DNA from: Candidatus Parcubacteria bacterium
GTDB lineage: Bacteria > Patescibacteriota > Patescibacteriia > Patescibacteriales > UBA12075
Reading direction: 5' to 3'
Assembly (NCBI GenBank): GCA_023132155.1
Contig: JAGLYP010000036.1
Coordinates: 1 to 33,976 of the forward strand
Length of the DNA: 33,976 nt
The translations under genes were made by a program, and so were the position numbers. The notes beneath the pieces are model-generated. The model saw nothing but the letters and a program-made list of their open reading frames with translations, had not been told where the DNA came from and searched no databases. Of this stretch, positions 188 to 29,448 are shown piece after piece; position 1 is the stretch's first letter; each line of letters opens with the position of its first letter.

Positions 188-259
188 CCCCTATAGCTCA
201 GTTGGTAGAGCAGCTCCCTCTTAAGGAGATGGTCGGGGGTTCAAATCCCTCTGGGGGCA
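187..259 (+). tRNA. tRNA-Lys (CTT)
   Basis: Acceptor GCCCCTA pairs with TGGGGGC; D-arm TAGCTCAGTTGGTAGAGCA; anticodon loop CTCTTAA gives CTT; T-loop TTCAAAT. CCA is not encoded. The 3' end of this gene (from 249) is also the left arm of a 29-bp hairpin reaching to 312, so the transcript can fold its acceptor and T-arm strand into an alternative stem with downstream sequence. Confidence 0.95.
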
Positions 260-312
260 CATATTATAAAAGTCCGGTGACAACCGGGCTTTTATAATAT
301 GTGCCCCCAGAG
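249..312 (+). repeat. 29-bp hairpin whose left arm is the tRNA-Lys 3' end
   Basis: Bases 249-277 pair with 284-312 around a 6-nt loop (TGACAA), with one G-U and no mismatches. The right arm continues as an inverted, partly diverged copy of the tRNA T-arm up to about 327. No T-run follows, so this is not a standard intrinsic terminator. It has the same position and design as the hairpin at 29133-29189 after tRNA-Leu(TAA). Confidence 0.9.
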
Positions 313-442
313 TGTAATTTGAATCCCTTTGATTATGTGTGAATTTTAAATAAAATATTTAATCTTAATTATTATTAAACAAACACCACCCTTCGCGAAC
401 AATGATGGTGTAGGGCTCGCCCTTTCAAATCCCTCTGTGGCA
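260..442 (+). mobile_element. tRNA-3'-end-associated element, copy A (tRNA-Lys)
   Basis: This non-coding stretch before the lysA leader holds, in order: the right half of the tRNA-anchored hairpin, an inverted tRNA 3'-end copy (301-327), TTTGATTAT (about 328-336), an AT-rich spacer of about 60 bp, a core with CCACCCT, CGCG, CAATGA and a GGGCTCGCCC hairpin (386-423), and a direct copy of the tRNA end TTCAAATCCCTCTG (424-437) running to GGCA at 442. The same parts in the same order and spacing occur after tRNA-Leu(TAA). Flanking direct copies of a tRNA 3' end are what integration at a tRNA att site leaves, but no integrase gene is present. A structured RNA co-transcribed with the tRNA is the other reading. 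Confidence 0.6.
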
Positions 443-29000: not shown

Positions 29001-29180
29001 TGTGCCCGAGGCCGGACTCGAAGGGCTGAAGCCCACGCCCTCATTGGACGCGTAGGGTGGATATTTTATTGTTTTTTAAATTTAGTTATTTTTTTATTTT
29101 ATAACCTATAATCAAACCGGTTCAAGCCTCGCCCTCGGGCACAAGACAAAAGACTTCCTTTCAGGAAGGCTTTTGTCTTG
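29001..29180 (-). mobile_element. tRNA-3'-end-associated element, copy B (tRNA-Leu TAA)
   Basis: Reading away from the tRNA on the minus strand: the rest of the tRNA-anchored hairpin, an inverted copy of the tRNA T-arm and acceptor end (29117-29141), TTTGATTAT, an AT-rich spacer of about 50 bp, the core (29021-29060: CCACCCT, CGCG, CAATGA, GGGCTTCAGCCC) and a direct copy of the tRNA 3' end (29001-29022, 22 nt identical to 29179-29200). Order, spacing and core match the element at 260-442. The core folds as CCAC-CCT with AGGG-C-GTGG here and as ACACCA with TGGTGT in copy A, which looks like compensatory change. Confidence 0.6.
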
Positions 29181-29189
29181 TGCCCGAGG
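29133..29189. repeat. 27-bp hairpin whose right arm is the tRNA-Leu(TAA) 3' end
   Basis: 29133-29159 pairs with 29163-29189 with a single A-G mismatch and a 3-nt loop. The right arm contains the terminal bases of tRNA-Leu(TAA) (29181-29189). It is the counterpart of 249-312. Confidence 0.9.
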
Positions 29190-29264
29190 CCGGACTCGAA
29201 CCGGCACGGTGTTGCCACCAAGAGATTTTAAGTCTCTCGCGTATACCAATTTCGCCACTCGGGC
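29181..29264 (-). tRNA. tRNA-Leu (TAA)
   Basis: Acceptor GCCCGAG pairs with CTCGGGC; anticodon loop CTTAAAA within AGAGA/TCTCT gives TAA; long variable arm; T-loop TTCGAGT. CCA is not encoded: A29181 is followed by CAAG on the minus strand. It is followed by element copy B. Confidence 0.95.
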
Positions 29265-29371
29265 CAATAAATAAACTTACGCATACCCCACTTCGCTTTA
29301 ACGATTAATTATTTTATAAAATTAGTGCGTGCGCCGCGTAGCTCTTAAGCGGCAAAGCCGCAAGAGCGAAG

Positions 29372-29448
29372 TGGTGGACCGTAAGGGATTCGAACCCTTG
29401 ACCCCCTGCGTGCAAGGCAGGTACTCTAGCCAGCTGAGCTAACGGCCC
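29372..29448 (-). tRNA. tRNA-Ala (TGC), CCA encoded
   Basis: Acceptor GGGCCGT pairs with ACGGTCC (one G-U); anticodon loop CTTGCAC within CCTGC/GCAGG gives TGC; T-loop TTCGAAT; discriminator A followed by encoded CCA (29374-29372). Downstream on the minus strand are the CCACTTCGCT and AGCTACGCGG tRNA-spacer motifs. Confidence 0.95.

Follow-up and report, generated by a model that had tools for sequence, protein, structure and literature searches.

tRNA-linked repeats and related systems

Short repeats carrying a copy of the 3′ end of a neighbouring tRNA gene have been described in Escherichia coli (Egan and Landy, 1978; Rudd, 1999; both as cited in PMC8144298), and are referred to as a class, tRNA-linked repeats (TLRs), by Stenum et al. 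(2021), with 22 genes at ten loci and no known function (PMC8144298). Each E. coli TLR has 18–19 bp in common with the upstream tRNA or rRNA (PMC8144298). Members of the RtT family also occur in Pasteurellaceae (PMC4986893); in the literature covered here, TLRs are otherwise an enterobacterial matter (PMC8144298, PMC4986893). The repeats at tyrT consist of a tandem 178-bp unit, annotated as the RtT sRNA (rtT RNA, Rfam RF00391); they contain the tRNA-Tyr 3′ end in three direct copies, along with an inverted copy of the T-arm that includes GAGAA. The inverted copy reads GGAUGAGAA.. in tyrT/V and GAUUCGAACCUGC in lysV/Q. At lysV and lysQ the whole layout is seen, in the order tRNA, first terminator (term1), inverted copy (I), core, direct copy (D2) and second terminator (term2), with term2 repeating term1; the argQZV and lysTWYZ repeats are short forms.

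The RrA, RrB and RrF sRNAs of the E. coli rrn operons are comparable in lying between dual terminators after the 5S gene and ending in a copy of its 3′ end, but they are rRNA-linked, bind Hfq and CsrA in vitro, and show no inverted tRNA arm. The widely used E. coli rrnB T1–T2 terminator region (positions 301–485 of locus L241) was itself observed to be a TLR, in which the two terminators enclose a copy of the 5S rRNA 3′ end. tRNA-integrating elements with T-loop attachment sites likewise produce a direct repeat from the T-loop to the tRNA 3′ end, and have precise empty sites.

Two elements in the window

The window, meaning the whole stretch of 33,976 nt analysed here, contains two elements of this kind. 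The plus-strand element follows tRNA-Lys(CTT) (187–260; ARAGORN, Rfam), whose positions 54–73 constitute the first copy of the 3′ end, D1 (240–259). A terminator-like hairpin, term1, comes next (262–299; sequence and fold), with arms reaching into the tRNA end. I (300–327; pairing alignment) is an inverted copy of tRNA positions 49–73 plus CA, mismatched beside the T-stem. It is followed by TTTGATTAT (328–336) and an AT-rich spacer, together 328–385 and matched by R1, a covariance model built from four copies. The core (386–423) ends in a hairpin at 412–423 (AGGG-CUCG-CCCU) and is identified by covariation and by a match at 393–432 to R2, a core-only covariance model. D2 (424–443), a direct copy of the tRNA-Lys 3′ end from position 54, closes the element.

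The minus-strand element has the same parts. tRNA-Leu(TAA) lies at 29180–29264 (ARAGORN), with D1 at 29200–29181, followed by the term1 hairpin (29144–29178; sequence and fold) and by I (29117–29143; pairing alignment), again an inverted copy of positions 49–73 plus CA. TTTGATTAT (29116–29108) and the AT-rich spacer occupy 29061–29116 (sequence; R1 match), and the core, with its terminal hairpin at 29034–29023 (GGGC-UUCA-GCCC), occupies 29023–29060 (sequence, covariation and R2 match). D2 lies at 29001–29022 and also starts from position 54. The T-loop-to-T-loop distance is 184 for Lys and 178 for Leu, and both stretches fold far better than their shuffled counterparts (z of −8.6 for Lys and −10.9 for Leu).

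Both elements sit where the initial annotation put them, with the architecture that it described (sequence, ARAGORN). One correction concerns the outer copies: the Leu D2 is perfect, but the Lys D2 is decayed, with three mismatches and an indel. Rfam identified no RNAs in the window other than tRNAs and tmRNA. The pattern TTTGATTAT..CCACCCT occurs at only two places in the 1.23-Mb genome, the Lys and Leu elements; this, together with ten tRNA-linked core copies genome-wide, excludes chance. Another palindromic repeat (CCGCGTAGCTTTAGCGAAGTGGGG / CCACTTCGC..), which does not belong to the tRNA-linked element, flanks tRNA genes of this genome at 98–186 and 29300–29372, and also at locus L100.

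Copies in the source genome

Scanning of the genome containing the window (G000) with R1 and a core pattern revealed ten copies, no two of them following the same tRNA gene: Lys-CTT, Leu-TAA, Ser-TGA, Glu-CTC, Thr-GGT, Thr-TGT, Arg-GCG, Ile-TAT, Ala-GGC and Ala-CGC. The general order is tRNA (its 3′ part being D1), term1 hairpin, I, TTGATTAT with the AT-rich spacer, core with a terminal GC hairpin, D2, and usually a second terminator. I spans tRNA positions 73 to 49 inverted, and D2 is direct, starting exactly at position 54 and running through N73-CA. Unit length falls into two classes among 48 measured elements from this and related genomes, 104–114 bp (7 copies) and 162–196 bp (41 copies). 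A short form without spacer, in which GGTGTGGGGCTTCCGCCCC and D2 come nearly directly after I, was found at Lys, Arg and Ala genes of genome G048. Units are in tandem at G048 Leu-CAA and G647 Ser-TGA, and D2 is followed by another copy of the same terminator at G000 Thr-GGT, G057 Tyr and G048 Leu.

Two of the ten G000 copies lie at contig breaks (C22/C13 and C41/C40). Inside the palindrome loop, each broken end is the exact reverse complement of its partner, indicating that the assembler stopped at the hairpin, and we infer that rejoining these contigs reunites each element with the tRNA that it matches. Because contigs of G000 break at tRNA-adjacent palindromes, element counts in draft genomes are probably underestimates. 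Two further contig ends were observed in or close to palindromes immediately 3′ of tRNAs, the end of C16 (Lys-TTT) and the start of C42 (Cys-GCA).

Distribution among relatives

R2 was used for the family, order and phylum searches. Matches were found in 8 of 12 genomes of the family, in 26 of 109 genomes of the order, and, in a less sensitive search of a phylum-wide sample, in one genome outside the class. Weak matches that were inspected (E around 0.001–0.008) proved to be full elements with a perfect D2 wherever the contig held a tRNA. All 48 measured elements lie directly 3′ of a tRNA (ARAGORN). The tRNA linkage foreseen from the two window copies is thus borne out by covariance-model matches across the order, essentially all of which adjoin tRNA genes. 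The cores of G000 sit at ten tRNA genes, and those of other genera mostly at different ones.

Matches to TTTGATTAT..CCACCCT in the order, outside the source genome, were judged to be mostly chance; one of them, at G057 Asp, is a degraded element. Core-pattern matches in viral and genome contigs were set aside as chance, since they had no tRNA context. Two loci of G057, L196 and L055, carry elements with no intact tRNA directly upstream, and D1 appears lost or decayed there; D2 resembles tRNA-His in L196 and tRNA-Trp in L055, and both tRNAs are encoded elsewhere. The same genome contains a second type of tRNA 3′-end duplication, at L151 (Phe-GAA), L154/L092 (Met-CAT) and L150 (Ser-CGA), with a G+C-rich core and, like E. 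coli TLRs, a D2 whose start is near position 58.

The end copies and the core

Over tRNA positions 54–72 (19 nt), D2 is identical to its own tRNA in 41 of 48 elements and has one mismatch in 5 more, in a set of related, not independent, copies collected with at most 4 mismatches to D2, so that badly decayed copies are under-counted; discovery of the family itself rested on the core model, not on D2. Compared with tRNAs other than its own, D2 has a median of 8 mismatches over 19 nt. Even the rare T-loop TCC is carried into D2 at G056 Lys-TTT and G057 Gly-GCC. That the end copies track the adjacent tRNA, as first proposed from the Lys and Leu copies, therefore applies across genomes. D2 is decayed or interrupted at G000 Lys and at G057 Gly and Asp, indicating that it is not always needed. 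G+C-rich palindromes of about 35–45 bp were observed inside D2, near the T-stem, with D1 intact, at L160 (G057 Gly), L152 (G057 Asp), L221 (G002 Val), L210 (G007 Pro) and L238 (G017 Lys). These palindromes suggest that D2 is dispensable and a hot spot for another repeat.

Constraint at the RNA level was seen in the core hairpin, where 18 sequences contain 13 double-sided changes, 4 of 5 pairs covary, and 98.9% of cells are paired. None of 500 shuffles reached its covariation score. Comparison of I with the tRNA acceptor strand (positions 66–73) gave 243 Watson–Crick, 55 G–U, 7 A–C and 31 other oppositions, I having been located by identity only for this count. Under neutral transitions, G–U and A–C would be about equally frequent; the excess of G–U (55 versus 7) has a p-value of about 2e-10 before allowing for relatedness, a value tempered by the related copies and by a possible C-to-T bias on a transcribed locus. 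The excess points to a forward-strand RNA helix between I and the tRNA 3′ end. The candidate TATAATCA, considered as a reverse-strand promoter for I, was rejected, since the forward-strand G–U excess argues that the forward RNA matters.

Other features of I were observed. In the orthologous Ala-GGC elements of G000 and G052, I differs by pairing-preserving changes. The complement of positions 49–53 is kept in I although these positions are present only in D1, and in three cases of disagreement between D1 and D2 (G000 Lys, G000 Ala-CGC and G052 Ala-GGC), I fits D1. As tendencies only, I has GAGAA opposite G57 T-loops (18 of 27) and more often the Watson–Crick UUGAA opposite A57 T-loops. In predicted folds, I-core-D2 alone forms a closed stem, and in the Lys and Leu RNAs the D1:I fold is favoured by 16–20 kcal/mol over an intact tRNA with a free 3′ part. 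Across the sequences compared, I has stayed complementary to the tRNA 3′ end, partly through G–U pairs, and D2 has stayed identical to it.

Element-free sites and age

No R2 match was found in the congener G053, and its Arg-GCG, Ala-GGC and Glu-CTC genes are element-free, each tRNA being followed at once by the sequence that flanks D2 in G000. Such empty sites in a related genome, which the initial annotation had proposed to look for, are thus present at three loci. At Arg-GCG, the native terminator of G053 is the same as that after the G000 D2. At Ala-GGC, CCA is encoded in both the G053 tRNA and the G000 D2, and the G000 D1 has CA. The match of the G053 3′ end and flank to D2 and flank of G000 identifies D1-term1-I-core as the extra unit. 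By sequence, these sites would be explained equally by gain or by precise loss. The Ile-TAT element is found in G000, G057 and G058 with common peculiarities in I (GTGTTCAG), which indicate that it is old.

What is the element?

The initial annotation knew of no named element with this layout, but E. coli TLRs have it, including the inverted T-arm copy and the dual terminators. In both, the unit lies 3′ of a tRNA gene and carries a direct copy of the tRNA 3′ end, 18–19 bp in E. coli; all 48 elements are downstream of a tRNA, 41 of the 48 have a 3′ copy identical to the tRNA over 19 nt, the main size class of 162–196 bp compares with about 178 bp, and tandem cases occur. The two differ in the start of D2, at about position 58 in E. 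coli and at 54 here, and in spread, with 22 TLRs at 10 loci in E. coli (PMC8144298) and many tRNA species across an order here. The present family gave no match to Rfam RtT (RF00391) at E≤1, whereas E. coli copies score 121–134 bits; R2, run unfiltered on the E. coli TLR loci, gave no match at the TLR cores; and Rfam searches at gathering and permissive thresholds returned only tRNA/tmRNA and low-score hairpin matches. On these comparisons, the family is a lineage-wide TLR-type layout with an unrelated core, and is not RtT.

The element is probably a TLR-type second structured RNA module, expressed 3′ of the tRNA gene through terminator readthrough. Transcription would read through term1, and most copies would end at the second terminator. 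I would pair with D2 to form an acceptor/T-stem minihelix with the core placed in the T-loop, and tRNA 3′-processing enzymes may trim this minihelix and release a small RNA. Alternatively, I would pair with D1 and lock the 3′ half of the tRNA itself into an extended hairpin; competition between D1 and D2 for I is likewise predicted. At the DNA level, D1-term1-I-core comes and goes exactly at tRNA position 53/54, and D2 or the equivalent tRNA end is what remains. The tRNA linkage, D2 tracking, core covariation, G–U excess, orthologous elements, element-free sites, E. coli layout and predicted I-core-D2 stem all argue for this reading. Against it, the core is homologous neither to those of E. 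coli TLRs nor to Rfam RtT, D2 is decayed in some copies, C-to-T bias could inflate the G–U excess, and the favoured D1:I fold would, as modelled, be harmful to the tRNA if termination or processing were inefficient.

A tentative alternative is a non-autonomous mobile element that targets the tRNA T-loop and takes the sequence of its ends from the target. On insertion, the unit would supply a replacement 3′ end (D1) together with I and displace the original 3′ end (D2), with RNA structure as a by-product or mobility signal. The occurrence of related cores at different tRNA genes within and between genera fits such spread, as do the precise element-free sites, where the Ala-GGC D2 keeps the CCA of the G053 tRNA, the tandem pair in G048, and the perfect acceptor match of I at Lys, Leu, Thr-GGT, Ser and Ala-CGC of G000, as recent insertions would show. 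However, some copies, such as Ile-TAT with its common quirks in I, are old and vertical, and the empty sites are accounted for just as well by precise loss through D1 × D2 recombination. Unlike known tRNA-integrating elements, the units measure only about 0.1–0.2 kb, lack an integrase, have many tRNA targets, have ends that track the target, and carry an extra inverted copy. Somewhat doubtful is a transposable RNA-forming unit that inserts at any tRNA T-loop and rebuilds its inverted and direct ends from the target, perhaps through a copying enzyme for which the tRNA terminator hairpin serves as its own primer; if true, E. coli TLRs would descend from such units or have arisen in parallel with them. 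The two readings offered initially, a tRNA-linked structured RNA and a unit with host-matching ends, both find support, and re-templating on insertion is only plausible.

Tandem duplication of the tRNA 3′ end and terminator as a neutral replication by-product, with template switching at the hairpin perfecting the palindrome, would fit the copy of the same terminator after some D2 copies and the smooth passage of palindrome arms from terminator into tRNA. It is improbable, as it gives no account of a common core at dozens of unrelated tRNA genes, boundaries fixed at 49 and 54, the two separate size classes, the covariation or the G–U excess. The exact 53/54 boundary, a D2 that completes the tRNA, and an I that pairs across the junction like a guide would suit an intron-like T-loop insertion, spliced from position 53 to D2 to restore the tRNA; yet a good tRNA is already complete with D1, several copies have a broken D2 beside an intact D1, and no group I or II core was found by Rfam, which makes splicing very unlikely. 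Hardly credible is a T-box-like attenuator sensing tRNA to control a downstream gene. tRNA-related alternative pairing is seen here too, in mutually exclusive predicted folds, but the element comes after the tRNA gene, pairs in cis, ends in most copies at its own second terminator, and has no Rfam T-box match.

The elements show that copies of a tRNA 3′ end, direct or inverted, can stay in step with the gene over long periods. A TLR layout with an unrelated core, spread across an order and dozens of tRNA genes, together with its covariation, close pairs of orthologues and empty sites, provides comparative material on whether such repeats are functional RNAs, self-spreading units, or both.
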